The position numbers and the translations under genes are program-made. A stretch of 11,843 nt of DNA from a bacterium (GTDB lineage: Bacteria > B130-G9): contig JAGHCW010000080.1 in the NCBI GenBank assembly GCA_021160245.1, positions 1 to 11,843 of the forward strand. The letters are read 5' to 3'. Below, one piece after another: positions 1,908 to 11,174 of the stretch. Every line of letters starts with the position of its first letter. Within the stretch, counting starts at the first letter, position 1. The notes below the pieces were generated by a model, which worked only from the letters and a program-made list of their open reading frames with translations, had not been told where the DNA came from and searched no databases.

Positions 1908-1936
1908 TTGACGGAGGAATCTCACCACACTATATT
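1908..1936 (+). promoter_or_regulatory. Sigma70-type promoter for the tRNA-His/hisS/lyase unit
   Basis: TTGACG (1908-1913) and TATATT (1931-1936) are separated by exactly 17 bases, close to the sigma70 consensus and spacing. Transcription would begin near 1943, about 70 bases before the tRNA. The leader contains a short GC stem (CGGGG 1960-1964 with CCCCG 1971-1975). There is no other promoter of similar quality between this point and the lyase gene. Confidence 0.6.
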
Positions 1937-2011
1937 CATTTGCTGTTTGCTTCGGCTCGCGGGGCGGATTCCCCGGTGTGGCTGCCACATTCCGAGCGGA
2001 AGGACCCAAGT

Positions 2012-2086
2012 GCTGGCGTAGCTCAGAATGGCTAGAGCACCTGACTGTGGATCAGGAGGTCTCGGGTTCAAGTCCCGACGCCAGTA
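2012..2086 (+). tRNA. tRNA-His (anticodon GTG) lacking encoded G-1, with G1-U72 and A73
   Basis: A full cloverleaf can be drawn. Acceptor GCTGGCG (2012-2018) pairs with CGCCAGT (2079-2085), giving a G1-U72 wobble. T8 and A9 follow, then a D-arm with GCTC/GAGC and GG in the loop. The anticodon arm is CCTGA-CTGTGGA-TCAGG with anticodon GTG at 2047-2049. The variable loop is AGGTC and the T-arm is TCGGG-TTCAAGT-CCCGA. Numbering is anchored by T8 and the T-loop, so base -1 is T (2011) and base 73 is A (2086). CCA is not encoded (CAT follows). Nearly all bacterial tRNA-His genes encode G-1 opposite C73. The U72/A73 form without G-1 is the one described for a group of Alphaproteobacteria including Caulobacter. 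The gene lies 60 bp before hisS on the same strand and probably shares its transcript. Confidence 0.95.
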
Positions 2087-2108
2087 CATTTTGCACTAAT
2101 CTACGGCT

Positions 2109-2128
2109 CAGCAGACCGAACTCTGCTG
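2109..2128 (+). other. Stem-loop in the tRNA-His to hisS spacer
   Basis: CAGCAGA (2109-2115) and TCTGCTG (2122-2128) form a perfect 7-bp stem with a 6-base loop. It sits between the tRNA 3' end and the hisS ribosome binding site (AGGG at 2135-2138), leaving the latter free. No T-run follows, so it is not a standard terminator. If tRNA and hisS are co-transcribed, it would lie at the 5' end of the hisS message after tRNA maturation and could protect that end or be a processing site. The role is inferred. Confidence 0.45.
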
Positions 2129-2145
2129 CAAACTAGGGACTGGAG

Positions 2146-3612
2146 ATGTCAGGAAACAAAATCCGAAGGCCAAGACCTAGACTGGCGCGAGGCTTTAGAG
2201 ACGTCTCAGGCGAGGACCTGACCGCTCGATGGTCGATGATCAGCATCGTTCGCCGTGTCTATGAGCGATATGGCTTCATTCCGCTGGAGACTCCAACCGT
2301 CGAGTTTGCTGACATGCTCGGAAAATTCATTCAGGAGACAGGCCTGCCGACAGAGGGGATATTCTCTTTCAAGGCAGACCAGCCCGACTGGCTTGCCCTA
2401 AGATACGATCTAACCGCGCCTCTTTCACGTTACGTCGCAATGCACCGTGACCTCCCAAAGCCCTTCCGGCGGTATCAAGTCGGCTCGGTATTCAGAGTCG
2501 AAAAGCCCGGGCCAGGACGCTTCCGAGAGTTCACACAGTTCGACATTGACACAGTCGGCAGCGCGAGCATGGCCGCCGACGCTGAGATATGCTGCGTTCT
2601 CTGCGACGCCTTTGATGCGCTTGGACTTGAGGGCAGATACGTCGTTCGAGTTGGAAACAGGCGCGTCCTAAATGGAGTGCTCGAGGCTGCGGGCGTAGAT
2701 ACGAAGGACGGCGGAGGCCTAGTAGCCACGCGCGTCATGCGCTGCATCGACAAACTCGAGAGACTTGGTCTGTCCGGAATCGAGCAGCTCTTAAGCCAGG
2801 GCCGTATGGATGGCTCAGGCGATTTCACGGAAGGGGCCGCACTATCAGACGAGCAGGCTCGCGTTGTCATTGATTACCTCAAGTCCCAGCGAGAGACCCG
2901 CATGGCCTGCTGTGATGCCCAGGAGGCGATAGTCTCCGGCTCAGAGGAGGGGCGTCGGGGCGTGAATGAGTTGAGAGAGATTGACGAATTCCTAACCGCA
3001 GCGGGTTACGATGAGACGAAAATCATTTTCGACCCGACCATTGTCCGGGGCCTTACTTACTATACCGGCCCCGTCTATGAGGCCTCGCTAAGGGATGAGA
3101 GCGGCAAGTTTACAAGTAGCATTGCGGGTGGTGGCCGCTATGATGACCTCATCGAGCGCTTCACCGGCCAGAAAGTCCCCGCGACCGGCGCCTCGATTGG
3201 CGTCGATCGACTCCTCGAGGTGTTGAAGGGGGCCGACAGGGAGCCGGAGCGGGTATCTGCCCGTGTTCTTGTAACCCAGATGGATAAGACCTATGCGAAG
3301 GATTACGTGGCAATAACGGCAGAGCTTCGACGCGCGGGAATCCCCTCGGAATTGTATCTCGGCAAGGGCAATATCGGCAAGCAGTTCAAGTATGCTGACG
3401 ACAGAGGCATCCCCGTCGCCATTATTGCGGGGGAGGACGAGTTCGCGGAGGGTCTAGTTTCCGTTAAGAACCTAGCGCTTGGCAAAGTCGTCTCGCAGGA
3501 GGTCAAGGAACGCTCTGAATGGCTCAAGCGAGAGGAGACACAGGTCACCGTGGCTCGTGAGGAGATGCTCATGAAAGTCAGAGAGATTCTGAAAGCGCAA
3601 CATAATGAGTAA
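2146..3612 (+). CDS. hisS: Histidyl-tRNA synthetase, divergent alphaproteobacterial-type
   Basis: Cytoplasmic class II synthetase that joins histidine to tRNA-His using ATP. It has 488 residues, somewhat longer than the usual 420-450. Motif 2 reads FRRYQVGSVFRVEKPGPG (107-124) followed by RFREFTQFD. The histidine-specific motif is RGLTYYTGPVYE (301-312), and motif 3 contains GGGRYDDL and PATGASIGVDRL. The C-terminal anticodon-binding domain includes KYADDRGIP. Ordinary bacterial HisRS has RHERPQ-GRYRQF in motif 2 and RGLDYY in the histidine motif. The EKPGPGRFREF and DTVGS-ADAE signatures seen here match the divergent enzyme that, in Caulobacter, recognises the anticodon, A73 and U72 rather than G-1. 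That agrees with the tRNA 60 bp upstream. ATG 2146 is preceded by AGGG at 2135-2138, 7 bases away. The stop is 30 bases before the lyase start, with a small 5-bp stem (3616-3631) in between. Confidence 0.95.
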   Translation: MSGNKIRRPRPRLARGFRDVSGEDLTARWSMISIVRRVYERYGFIPLETPTVEFADMLGKFIQETGLPTEGIFSFKADQPDWLALRYDLTAPLSRYVAMHRDLPKPFRRYQVGSVFRVEKPGPGRFREFTQFDIDTVGSASMAADAEICCVLCDAFDALGLEGRYVVRVGNRRVLNGVLEAAGVDTKDGGGLVATRVMRCIDKLERLGLSGIEQLLSQGRMDGSGDFTEGAALSDEQARVVIDYLKSQRETRMACCDAQEAIVSGSEEGRRGVNELREIDEFLTAAGYDETKIIFDPTIVRGLTYYTGPVYEASLRDESGKFTSSIAGGGRYDDLIERFTGQKVPATGASIGVDRLLEVLKGADREPERVSARVLVTQMDKTYAKDYVAITAELRRAGIPSELYLGKGNIGKQFKYADDRGIPVAIIAGEDEFAEGLVSVKNLALGKVVSQEVKERSEWLKREETQVTVAREEMLMKVREILKAQHNE

Positions 3613-3642: not shown

Positions 3643-5586
3643 ATGACGGAAAGAGATTCGCGCAGCGACCATTCATCCTTCAGCCCATCCGTGCTTCGTG
3701 TCATGGGGAAACCCGTCGCGAACCCAGTCGTCATCGACCACAGTCCAGACTGCCTCACGCTGGAGAAACTCGTTGCGGTAGCGCGTGGGGATGACGAGGG
3801 CCGAGTGGCCAGCGTCCGTGTCTCCCAGACCAGCCTTGAGCGTGTCGCAAGGAGCGCCCGCAAGATAGAGGAGGCGATTCTCACCGCCCAGGAGAACTTC
3901 GCCGCAGCTTCGCCCGAGAGCAAGCACCTCTTCCTCATCTATGGCGTCAACACGGGCTTCGGGATAAATAGGGACAAACCGGTCGAGACGTTCGCCGATT
4001 GCTGTAAACTGTCCGAGAACATACTTTTCAGTCATGCGACTGCCGTCGGGCCCCCGCTCCCGTCTGAGGTCGTTCGTGCCACAATGCTCCTCAGGCTGCG
4101 AACGTTCGCCCAGGGGCGTTCTGGCGTCAGGCCGGATCTGCTCAATCTCCTTGTCGAGCTGCTTAACAAACGGGTCCACCCGTGGGTCCCATCGCAAGGT
4201 AGTGTCGGGTCATCCGGCGATCTCTGCTCGCTATCCCACCTCTCCCTCGTCCTCATCGGAGAGGGCCAGGCGTGGGTGGAAACGGATTATCCCGGGCCCG
4301 ATTGCACCGTAAGCAACAGTGATGTTGATGCTAGACGCCAACCGATGCCCGGCGCTGAGGCGCTTGCGGCCGTCGGCTTGAAGCCTCTGACAGGGCCGCT
4401 CGCGCCCAATGGCTTTGAGAGCGACGACGCGCCTCGTCTCGCCCCCAAAGAGGGAATTGCGCTGACAAACGGCGCCTCAGTCGCAGCCGCGCTCTCCGCA
4501 TTGTCCATTCACGACGGGGAGGTCCTGCTCAGCTCCGCCAATCTGGCCGGGGCCATGACACTTCAGGCAATTGGTGGGATAACTCGCGCATTTGAGCCGA
4601 TTGTTCACGAGGCGCGTCGCCACACGGGTCAGATGAAGTGCGCCCGCGAGATAATGTCTTTTGTGGAGAATCCAGACCCGGGTGGGTTGGATAACCGGGC
4701 ATCAGTTCTTTTCCAGACGCAGGATGACTACTCCGTGCGGGCTATGCCCCAGGTGCATGGGCCTGCGCTTTCCGCAATCGCCCACGCTCGGGAGACGATT
4801 GAGGCGGAGATTAACGCCGTTACAGACAACCCCCTCATCTTTTGTGAGGAAGGCGACGAGTCGTATCAGCCGAATGATACCCGTGTGGGTCGCCCCGTAA
4901 GCCTATTCCCGATATATTCCGCCGCAAATTTCCACGGAGAACCTGTTGGGCTTGTCTCCGATTATCTCAAACTCGCGCTTTCCGAACTCGCCTCGATCTC
5001 GGAACGGAGAATCCAGCTGCTACTTGATGGCAAGAGAAATCGTGGCCTGCCGGCAAATCTCTCGGGCGGACGAGGAGGCCTGGACAGCGGATTCATGATT
5101 CTCCAATACACCGCGGCGAGCCTCGTTTCCGAGAACAAAGTCCTCTGTCACCCCTCTAGTTGTGATTCCATTCCGACCTCATCTGACGCGGAGGACCACG
5201 TGGCCATGGCCACAACGGCGGCCAGACATCTCGCGCAGGTTGTCAAGAACGTCTCGAACGTCCTTGCGATTGAGTTTATCTGTGCTAGCCAGGCGCTGGC
5301 CTTCCGGACGGAGCAACGGGAGCTTCTGTTGGCGCTTCTGGGTGGTTCCGGAAGCTGGCCTATTCCGAACGGGCGTAAGGAAGGCGAACCTCCCCCTTCC
5401 GTGAGCCCTCCGTGTAAGGTCTGCATGGATCAGGTCTTTTCGGTATGCCCATTCGTAACCGCTGATGCTGGATTCCGGAGTGCGCTCCCTCATCAGAGGA
5501 TTCAAGCGGTTCGAGACCTCCTATCCAGCGGGACTCTGCTACTCTTAGCCCGCAACGTCCTTTCGCCCAGCGGCAATCTCAAGTAA
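3643..5586 (+). CDS. Histidine ammonia-lyase family protein (HAL/PAL/TAL, MIO-dependent) with Ser-Ser-Gly cofactor motif
   Basis: Family members remove ammonia from histidine (giving urocanate) or from an aromatic amino acid, using an MIO cofactor made by cyclisation of an internal tripeptide, normally Ala-Ser-Gly. Here the loop is GSVGSSGDL and the tripeptide is S190-S191-G192. Residues matching the Pseudomonas histidase active site are all present: Y100 (YGVNTGFG), H131, N276 (TNG), Q360, Y363 and R366 (QDDYSVR), F430 (NFHGEP) and E517 (AEDHVAM). The His and Glu favour histidine as substrate. The protein has 647 residues against about 510 for HutH. Extra length lies in an N-terminal extension of about 25 residues, insertions near 211-234 and 248-264, and a long C-terminal tail with C591, C594 and C602. 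No hutU, hutI or hutG is adjacent, so a classical Hut pathway is not supported; an aminomutase or another ammonia-lyase is possible. No clear Shine-Dalgarno sequence precedes ATG 3643; a later start at ATG 3703 cannot be excluded. Confidence 0.88.
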   Translation: MTERDSRSDHSSFSPSVLRVMGKPVANPVVIDHSPDCLTLEKLVAVARGDDEGRVASVRVSQTSLERVARSARKIEEAILTAQENFAAASPESKHLFLIYGVNTGFGINRDKPVETFADCCKLSENILFSHATAVGPPLPSEVVRATMLLRLRTFAQGRSGVRPDLLNLLVELLNKRVHPWVPSQGSVGSSGDLCSLSHLSLVLIGEGQAWVETDYPGPDCTVSNSDVDARRQPMPGAEALAAVGLKPLTGPLAPNGFESDDAPRLAPKEGIALTNGASVAAALSALSIHDGEVLLSSANLAGAMTLQAIGGITRAFEPIVHEARRHTGQMKCAREIMSFVENPDPGGLDNRASVLFQTQDDYSVRAMPQVHGPALSAIAHARETIEAEINAVTDNPLIFCEEGDESYQPNDTRVGRPVSLFPIYSAANFHGEPVGLVSDYLKLALSELASISERRIQLLLDGKRNRGLPANLSGGRGGLDSGFMILQYTAASLVSENKVLCHPSSCDSIPTSSDAEDHVAMATTAARHLAQVVKNVSNVLAIEFICASQALAFRTEQRELLLALLGGSGSWPIPNGRKEGEPPPSVSPPCKVCMDQVFSVCPFVTADAGFRSALPHQRIQAVRDLLSSGTLLLLARNVLSPSGNLK

Positions 5587-9020: not shown

Positions 9021-11174
9021 TCACGTCAGCGCGAGCGAGGCGCCGTCCATATCAGCGAAATCCGGGCCAACTTGAAGGAGCGAAAGCGCCGTCGGGGCGA
9101 TGTCCATGATACTCGGTCTCTTTGACCCTATCGCTTTGTTTGAGAGCAGTACTCCCTGACAGATCGAGCTGTCCAGCGAGCAATGATCGCCCGACCACCT
9201 CCGATCGTTCGGCAAAAATAGTCCGCTAGATATGCCACCCAAAGTGCTTTGCCAAGAGACCCGATAGCCACTCGCCATTCCAACTTGCAGATCAGGCGCC
9301 TCATCAAAAGCCGGCCCCCAATATGACCCATCCCTGTCATAGACCGCTCGGACCGCAACCTCGCCCGTGTCTGCATCCCGCAGGCCCGAGAGCCGCTGGA
9401 TTATCTCATTCTTCACGGCACGGTACTCAGGTCCGGGCTTCACAACGCCTCGACCCTCGCGGCCCGCGAGGTTGATATATATCTGGCCGAGTCCAAGCGA
9501 GTATGCTCGTGTCCTCTCCCAGTCAACGTTGGGCCAGAAATCCCCATGCCCAAACAAGTTCTCCAAATTGAATTGCTCGCTGCCAGTTGACGCAAGTCGC
9601 ATGAAGCCGTTTCTGACTAGCCATGTGTTCAGATTGAGTCCACGCCTGAACGGGTGGAATCCATGGTCGGAGAGAACGAGCAATGTGGTGTCGGAATCAA
9701 GTATCTTAAGCACTTTGCCGATGACGTTGTCCATTCGCCTGTATGCGTCCAATATCGGCTCACCAAGGCGTTTTGCGAGTATCGGGTCGAAGAGCGAGTG
9801 ACGCTTATCCAACAGTCGCCAGAAGAGATGTTGCACGCGGTCAGTTCCAGAGAAGAGCTCGAAAAACAGGTTGAACCGCATGTCCTTGAGCGCATGAAGC
9901 AGCATCTTCTCTCGAAACTCAAACGTCAGAACCACGTCCTGCAAGAACGCCTCGTCCGTCAGGTTACCTTCGTTGTATGCCATCGTGTCAATCGCCCAGC
10001 CCTGTGTCTTGTACAGACCAATCTTCTCCGCCAGCTGCCTCGCGAAGCTCCGTGGGGAAGAGATCGGCAAGACCGGGTCACGCGGGTCGATATTTATGGG
10101 GCTCATGTAAACTCGAACATCCGGCAGGAGCGACTCGAGATAAAAACGGGCGATGCCGCTCGCGGAGACTATCGGTGTAACGTCGAATTCGACCTCCACA
10201 AATTTGGACCATTGGCCTGGCGCAAGCCGCAAAGATCGTCCACAGACCTCGATTGACAGAGCTTCTGTGCCGATTCGTCTAAACTTAACGGGGGTCGAGA
10301 GGATTGGTCTTTCACGCTCTAGCTTCGCTATTTTCATTTGCAGCTCGGCCCGCTCTTGCCTCAGCGCATCCAAACGTTTTGGACGTTGGTCGCCCTCTAA
10401 TAGCCGTTCCTCGATCTCAGCGAGCTCTTTCCTAGCATCGCCTTTACGCTCCGAGAGCACGGGGTCCCACGGCCCCTGAATCTCAGCGCGAGCGATGCCG
10501 TCCTGAAAGCGCAAATTGACCAGCTTGCCCCCCATCTCAGTATTCTCGACATCATCCTCGCCAACCGCGTTTGAGAAGTAGTGATATGTCCCCTGGGTAC
10601 CCCTGAGATCGGGAACTCCCAGCCCAGAGAGGATGTAACCGCCCTCGAGCCGCTCTGGCTCAAAGCTCACGGGCGCCTCTAAAACGACGGAGCGAATCCC
10701 CTGTTCGTCCGCAAGCTTCCAGAACGACTTGCCTCGTCTGCGACATATCGCCCTCGGAGCGGAAACCGGCACCGTCCCCCATAGAAACTTCGGCCTTACC
10801 GGACGAGCGATTGCTATCTCAGGGAAATAGGTCTTGGGATCGCGCCTCAAGAAATCGTATATACCTGTCCGTCCGGGATTGCCCCCGATAGCGAACGATG
10901 CCCATGCGACGGGCGATTCTGGAGGATTCGTCGTCTCGAGCCGCCTGTATCCGCCGAGTCGCATTAGACGTTGGATGTTTGGCAGCAGTCCCTTCTCTAC
11001 CCAGGGCTCTAGAAGACCCGGGGAGACACCGTCAAAGCCGAGAATCACGACTTTTTGCCGAAGGTCCCGCATCCTGCGCGACCCACAGCCCAATGGCCCG
11101 ATGATCGAGCCAAGAGCCGCTGCGCCGCCCGCGCAGCCGGCGAGGCGCATAAATTCCCTTCTTGTCAGCTTCAT
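9021..11174 (-). CDS. Tat-exported type I phosphodiesterase / nucleotide pyrophosphatase family protein (alkaline phosphatase superfamily)
   Basis: Metal-dependent phosphohydrolase with 717 residues. The N-terminus TRREFMRLAG is a twin-arginine signal (R5, R6, F8) followed by an Ala/Gly-rich hydrophobic stretch ending at C30. PLGC is a poor lipobox, so lipid attachment is uncertain. Superfamily motifs come in the normal order: metal Asp D48 in ILGFDGV; the nucleophile region PVAWASF, where S93 is the likely nucleophile instead of the commoner Thr, followed by NPGRTGIYDF; D445 and H449 in GTDRVQH; D503 and H504 in SDHGFHPF; and H664 in SGDHCSLD. These suffice for two metal sites. A charged heptad-like segment (about 246-290) predicts a coiled coil inserted within a largely beta insertion domain (about 170-380). 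The substrate cannot be read from sequence; relatives cleave nucleotide, phospholipid or other phosphodiesters. No clear Shine-Dalgarno sequence precedes ATG 11174. The next gene on this strand is the clostripain-family protease, also exported. Confidence 0.88.
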   Translation of the reverse strand: MKLTRREFMRLAGCAGGAAALGSIIGPLGCGSRRMRDLRQKVVILGFDGVSPGLLEPWVEKGLLPNIQRLMRLGGYRRLETTNPPESPVAWASFAIGGNPGRTGIYDFLRRDPKTYFPEIAIARPVRPKFLWGTVPVSAPRAICRRRGKSFWKLADEQGIRSVVLEAPVSFEPERLEGGYILSGLGVPDLRGTQGTYHYFSNAVGEDDVENTEMGGKLVNLRFQDGIARAEIQGPWDPVLSERKGDARKELAEIEERLLEGDQRPKRLDALRQERAELQMKIAKLERERPILSTPVKFRRIGTEALSIEVCGRSLRLAPGQWSKFVEVEFDVTPIVSASGIARFYLESLLPDVRVYMSPINIDPRDPVLPISSPRSFARQLAEKIGLYKTQGWAIDTMAYNEGNLTDEAFLQDVVLTFEFREKMLLHALKDMRFNLFFELFSGTDRVQHLFWRLLDKRHSLFDPILAKRLGEPILDAYRRMDNVIGKVLKILDSDTTLLVLSDHGFHPFRRGLNLNTWLVRNGFMRLASTGSEQFNLENLFGHGDFWPNVDWERTRAYSLGLGQIYINLAGREGRGVVKPGPEYRAVKNEIIQRLSGLRDADTGEVAVRAVYDRDGSYWGPAFDEAPDLQVGMASGYRVSWQSTLGGISSGLFLPNDRRWSGDHCSLDSSICQGVLLSNKAIGSKRPSIMDIAPTALSLLQVGPDFADMDGASLALT

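Follow-up and report, generated by a model that had tools for sequence, protein, structure and literature searches.

Few features of tRNAs are as universal as the guanosine at position -1 (G-1) of tRNA-His, and in ordinary histidyl-tRNA synthetases (HisRS) the glutamine of motif 2 reads C73. The Alphaproteobacteria of the RRCH clade, Caulobacter crescentus and relatives, have a tRNA-His with U72, A73 and no templated G-1, and a glycine in motif 2 of HisRS is the mark of this G-1-less clade (PMC3937112; PMC9976931). The Caulobacter HisRS charges its tRNA by way of the anticodon, A73 and U72 (PMC9976931), the Caulobacter tRNA-His lacks G-1, and the pairs of E. coli and Caulobacter are orthogonal (PMC3875453). 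Operons of tRNA-Trp(A73) and TrpRS-A in candidate phyla bacteria combine a divergent tRNA identity with its synthetase, and lateral transfer was proposed for them (PMC5370408).

The locus studied here lies in a stretch of 11,843 nucleotides, termed the window, from an uncultured bacterium (contig JAGHCW010000080.1). It shares with the RRCH system the missing templated G-1, U72, A73, glycine in place of glutamine and the HisRS clade, but the host belongs to another phylum, the tRNA gene lies directly 5' of hisS, a lyase gene lies 3' of it, and the enzyme falls outside the alphaproteobacterial clade. With the ordinary bacterial pair (templated G-1:C73) it has the reaction, the class II fold and a single tRNA-His gene in common, whereas the tRNA end (positions -1, 72 and 73) and motif 2 differ, and an ordinary tRNA-His adjoined hisS in 0 of 39 genomes. 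The tRNA-Trp(A73)-TrpRS-A operons of uncultured bacteria resemble it in joining a divergent tRNA identity and its synthetase in one (here probable) operon, but serve another amino acid and coexist with an ordinary pair, whereas the window pair stands alone (PMC5370408). We consider the cluster, with a probability of about 0.8, to be a histidine-identity system of the G-1-less kind, within a wider HisRS clade that spans several phyla and often has the tRNA gene linked to that of the synthetase.

Organization of the locus

The only tRNA-His(GTG) detected in the window by ARAGORN was reported at 2012-2087 on the forward strand, one base beyond A73, which is base 2086. Its acceptor stem was read from the sequence as GCTGGCG/CGCCAGT, and CCA is not encoded in the gene. 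U72 and A73 stand in place of C72 and C73, and a T replaces the templated G at -1, as it does in two relatives, G001 and G002. The hisS gene begins 59 nt past A73 on the same strand and is complete from its ATG to its TAA. The product passed the TIGR00442 hisS model (364 bits, cut-off 287) and contains a catalytic as well as an anticodon-binding domain. Its motif-2 loop reads EKPGPGRFREF, with a glycine in the motif IIb loop where ordinary enzymes have glutamine; PQxGR is the motif in most other eukaryote-like HisRS. The features given for the tRNA end and the synthetase by a first-pass annotation of this DNA (T at -1, G1-U72, A73 and an EKPGPGRFREF-type HisRS some 60 bp downstream) were thus all confirmed (Table 1).

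Table 1. Features of the window
Feature	Position	Strand	Basis
Promoter-like TTGACG-17 nt-TATATT, upstream of tRNA-His	1908..1936	+	10/12 consensus matches; predicted function
Possible hairpin GGCTCG...CGAGC(C)	~1953-2005		
T at -1 of tRNA-His; ordinary tRNA-His encodes G there	2011	+	sequence
tRNA-His(GTG); G1:U72, A73, G37, A38	2012..2086	+	ARAGORN and sequence reading
hisS, histidyl-tRNA synthetase, G-1-less (KPGPGRFREF) type, 488 aa	2146..3612	+	profile, domains, tree
Aromatic amino acid lyase, histidine ammonia-lyase-like (PF00221), 647 aa, MIO Ser-Ser-Gly	3643..5586	+	profile, domains
Clostripain-family (C11) peptidase, 1079 aa	5656-8895	-	
TAT-signal type I phosphodiesterase family protein	9021-11174	-	

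The same annotation had proposed to look for a second tRNA-His, a second HisRS and a Thg1-like gene, and none was found in the window genome, which is 3.43 Mb in size and 95% complete. The window copy is the sole tRNA-His among 51 tRNA matches, and a second one serving the genome was rejected. A single gene of the HisRS/HisZ family was present, and no match to Thg1 (PF04446) was obtained; a later addition of G-1 by this enzyme was likewise rejected. As a separate observation, a tRNA-like gene with the anticodon TTA, which would read UAA, was noted at L078 56-130 (G000:C103, near 34135-34209). Its acceptor stem resembles that of the genome's tRNA-Gln(TTG), the anticodon stem contains a T-T mismatch, and position 37 is C; it may be an ochre suppressor or the remnant of a tRNA-Gln. 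The stop codon of hisS is the one that this gene would read.

The promoter-like site has counterparts upstream of tRNA-His in G001 and G002, so that TTGACG-17-TATNNT precedes the tRNA in all three. In these two other genera of the family the 17-nt spacing, TTGACGGA and TATNNT are kept, and the flanks diverge. Since the site is conserved and no terminator-like site was found between tRNA-His and hisS in the window, both genes are likely to be co-transcribed. In the leader that joins the promoter-like site to the tRNA, a possible hairpin resembles those 5' of the tRNA in L033 and L034, and the three genera appear alike by eye.

The lyase gene, missed by the first-pass annotation, starts 30 nt past hisS and is the sole PF00221 gene of the window genome. 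Like HutH, its product belongs to the Lyase_aromatic family and has the MIO region. The Tyr, His, Asn, Tyr, Arg, Phe and Glu positions of the P. putida active site are kept, but the MIO tripeptide is Ser-Ser-Gly instead of Ala-Ser-Gly. Unlike HutH, it comprises 647 aa, scores below the cut-offs of both NCBIfam hutH models (473.4 bits against 524 and 452.9 against 539) and is encoded beside hisS, with no hut operon in the window. The hisS-linked lyases of the window, L085, L092, L083, L192, L196 and L084 have Ser-Ser-Gly in some cases and Ala-Ser-Gly in others.

Host lineage and distribution of the linked genes

The genome collection contained three relatives of the same family (G001, G002 and G003, of which G002 was deposited as Candidatus Coatesbacteria) and no other genome closer than the domain level. 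In the rpoB tree the family formed its own long branch, separate from the alphaproteobacterial clade. The host lies outside the Alphaproteobacteria, in line with the first impression that the rest of the window did not look so. In G001 and G002, which represent other genera, tRNA-His again lies directly upstream of HisRS and has T-1, G1:U72 and A73; the HisRS identity of the two further family genomes with the same locus was 70-72%. The contig of G003 stops inside HisRS, with HisRS and the lyase at its end, and no tRNA-His was recovered from it. Linkage of tRNA-His and HisRS was present in 3/3 family genomes in which the locus is visible. The arrangement is more than chance, as it is kept in two relatives of other genera and in unrelated lineages. 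An ordinary alphaproteobacterium, or an alphaproteobacterial contig placed in the wrong bin, could be considered given the roughly 50% identity of the HisRS to alphaproteobacterial enzymes. We rejected this explanation, whose probability is minute, on the separate rpoB branch, the family relatives (two share the locus and the third has HisRS and lyase), the position of the window HisRS outside the alphaproteobacterial clade and a GC content of the contig that matches the bin.

A scan of the genome collection, in which many genomes are metagenome bins, revealed the same HisRS type in Alphaproteobacteria and in metagenome-assembled genomes of Planctomycetota, Neomarinimicrobiota (Fidelibacterota in the taxonomy used) and Bipolaricaulota; together with a matching tRNA-His it also occurred in unnamed families. 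In a domain-wide sample, HisRS of at least 50% identity were present in 10/386 genomes, four from the window family and six others. A tRNA-His gene was located within 1.5 kb of HisRS in 9/13 genomes with the divergent type versus 0/39 other genomes (Fisher p 2e-7). Genomes of the same family are not independent, and a count by family is fairer: 6/9 divergent versus 0/~36 other families, p about 1e-5. More linked loci are L085, L087 and L110, and L092 with a distance of 2 kb. Linkage was missing in G010, G109, G019, G321 and most Planctomycetota seen, and none was found among the alphaproteobacterial loci of the genome-collection scan.

Besides the window family, the lineages in which the lyase adjoins HisRS are Neomarinimicrobiota, Bipolaricaulota, G010, G332 and G371, together with a single Planctomycetota genome. 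The genes for tRNA-His, HisRS and lyase are contiguous in five of all these lineages (the window family, Neomarinimicrobiota, Bipolaricaulota, G332 and G371). This neighbourhood could have arisen by chance, the lyase standing outside the system: many loci of the clade and every alphaproteobacterial locus seen are without it, and the genomes G401, G109 and G295 lack PF00221 genes altogether. Yet linkage recurs in several phyla, most of the genomes concerned have no PF00221 gene besides the linked one, and a lyase was found beside an ordinary-type HisRS at just 2/39 other HisRS loci (G037 and G092), so that a chance neighbour appears somewhat unlikely. As for its role, our guess is that the lyase links histidine breakdown with the charging of tRNA-His.

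The tRNA varies together with the synthetase. Among the genomes with divergent HisRS, A73 was present in every tRNA-His read save that of the Bipolaricaulota genome G050 (G73), and U72 in all except G053 and G019, both with C1:G72; U72 and A73 are therefore not absolute. The ends of alphaproteobacterial tRNA-His, retrieved with a pattern partly open at positions 71-73, were GTA (n=10) or GCC (n=46) and never mixed (0). A38 occurred in 27/28 divergent tRNA-His versus 4/46 ordinary alphaproteobacterial ones, with G109 and Labrys as further exceptions. Most divergent tRNA-His have A38 and no C70, unlike the ordinary alphaproteobacterial tRNAs, and A38 may be part of the recognition of the anticodon loop.

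Several variants were observed besides. Divergent tRNA-His genes with U72, A73 and a templated G at -1 were seen in G046 (L169, Planctomycetota) and G321 (L216). Judged by their sequences, they could have a G-1:A73 end like that of eukaryotes, and their mature 5' end may differ from that of the other divergent tRNAs. The Bipolaricaulota loci L165/L092 have the order HisRS, lyase, tRNA-His, with G73 and an encoded CCA in the tRNA. The basal relatives L037/L305 (G019), L198/L216 (G321) and L196 (G371) have A73 tRNAs, one of them with C1:G72, and their motif 2 reads KPEPGR or KPDKGR; they may be intermediate between ordinary and G-1-less types.

Descent of the synthetase and of its tRNA

A HisRS tree was computed with IQ-TREE (LG+C20) from 52 rows, which did not include eukaryotic HisRS or the Caulobacter enzyme. 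The 31 divergent HisRS formed one clade (support 100/99) that includes the window enzyme, which bears out its early assignment to the divergent G-1-less rather than the ordinary G-1-dependent type. The alphaproteobacterial enzymes, joined by that of G265, formed a subclade (100/97) nested within the divergent clade, with G332, G109 and a Planctomycetaceae bin as sisters and the window HisRS outside. The nesting was unchanged once long branches were removed. AU tests, for which the groups follow taxonomy and which were picked after the tree was seen, rejected a single clade of the non-alphaproteobacterial divergent HisRS (p=0.0005) as well as a single clade of the Planctomycetota HisRS (p 0.0003). 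Given the nesting, the alphaproteobacterial HisRS appears to have arisen inside a broader family of bacterial enzymes, and lateral transfer from that family is the simplest route. The first-pass annotation had implied a transfer in the other direction, from Alphaproteobacteria to the window lineage, and this is not supported by the tree, which runs the opposite way: the enzymes of the Alphaproteobacteria fall among those of other bacteria.

The strongest single piece of evidence for tRNA-His and HisRS moving together comes from G265. Its host is non-alphaproteobacterial by rpoB and groups with G031, G109, G332 and G037 (100/99), while its HisRS stands beside that of Hyphomicrobium (100/99) and its tRNA-His groups with the alphaproteobacterial G-1-less tRNAs in all three tRNA trees. 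Both genes lie side by side in tail-to-tail orientation near one end of a 180 kb contig, which suggests that a pair of alphaproteobacterial type was transferred as a unit. The GC content of this contig is 0.67-0.69 versus 0.61 in the rpoB region, and mis-binning of the contig retains a residual probability. G265 was the only genome in which the tRNA followed HisRS against the host tree. The proposal of the first-pass annotation that close linkage would allow the whole system to travel together finds support in this one genome, and is not borne out as a transfer for the window lineage itself.

Alternatively, HisRS may have spread on its own, with the host's tRNA-His adapting to it by loss of G-1 and gain of U72 and A73, in which case linkage would reflect gene order and not transfer. 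That HisRS was gained by lateral transfer and changed the rules for its tRNA is an earlier view, restated in PMC3937112. When whole tRNAs were compared, the alphaproteobacterial G-1-less tRNA-His sided with the non-alphaproteobacterial divergent tRNAs, favouring shared descent. When the acceptor stem was left out, they grouped with the ordinary alphaproteobacterial tRNAs, so that the tRNA bodies favour a native alphaproteobacterial tRNA-His adapted in place. Against an adaptation in place stand the strong tie of linkage to the divergent HisRS clade, the alphaproteobacterial-like linked tRNA in the foreign host G265 and the difference of most divergent tRNAs from ordinary alphaproteobacterial ones at positions 38 and 70. 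On balance we regard the separate spread of HisRS as a serious possibility, though not the probable course. Matches on plasmids were mostly to large alphaproteobacterial replicons, and a mobile unit was not evident among them. Of two matches on viral contigs, one is a HisRS nearest to Rhodobacterales enzymes, without an adjoining tRNA, and is probably host DNA.

The reading of the window as part of a multi-phylum G-1-less system can be extended further. An old cluster of tRNA-His, HisRS and lyase, present in several phyla, would then be the ancestral G-1-less system and move as a unit, the Alphaproteobacteria would have acquired it and later separated its genes, and the lyase would match histidine breakdown to charging. 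This extended scenario is tentative, and we think it rather unlikely to be correct in full.

Processing, charging and significance

According to the proposed mechanism, a single transcript would carry tRNA-His in its 5' leader, followed by HisRS and the histidine ammonia-lyase. RNase P would cut directly past T-1, and the mature tRNA-His would start at G1 without a G-1. HisRS would charge this tRNA by recognizing its anticodon and A73, and probably also the G1:U72 end; the mature 5' end and the charging are inferred by analogy with Caulobacter. The predicted cleavage site is based on the T that directly precedes G1 in all but two divergent tRNA-His read and directly precedes the templated G-1 in the ordinary alphaproteobacterial tRNA-His read.

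The mature tRNA might instead retain U-1, paired with A73 in an acceptor stem of eight pairs; position -1 would then be U rather than G. The very common T at -1 among divergent tRNAs, which could pair with A73, would fit such a structure. But the T ahead of the templated G-1 in ordinary alphaproteobacterial tRNA-His marks the base before the cut, T is found at -1 in 20/50 tRNAs of the window genome, and the tRNA of Caulobacter, with the same system, has no G-1 (PMC3875453). A retained U-1 is accordingly improbable, and a tRNA-His starting at G1 is the expected product.

A literature search that left out most subscription papers found no report of the system in other phyla or of the linked trio, which is weak evidence of novelty. 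The linked pairs of divergent HisRS and tRNA-His are candidate orthogonal pairs for work on the genetic code, in which the window pair would be expected to be orthogonal to G-1-dependent ones. A so far unexplored connection of histidine breakdown with charging is suggested by the lyase linked to the pair. With a matching pair in several phyla and the Alphaproteobacteria nested among them, the disputed origin of the G-1-less system, for which a eukaryotic source is one proposal, becomes directly testable. The loss of G-1 in Alphaproteobacteria, seen as a one-off event, seems to belong to an older and wider bacterial system.
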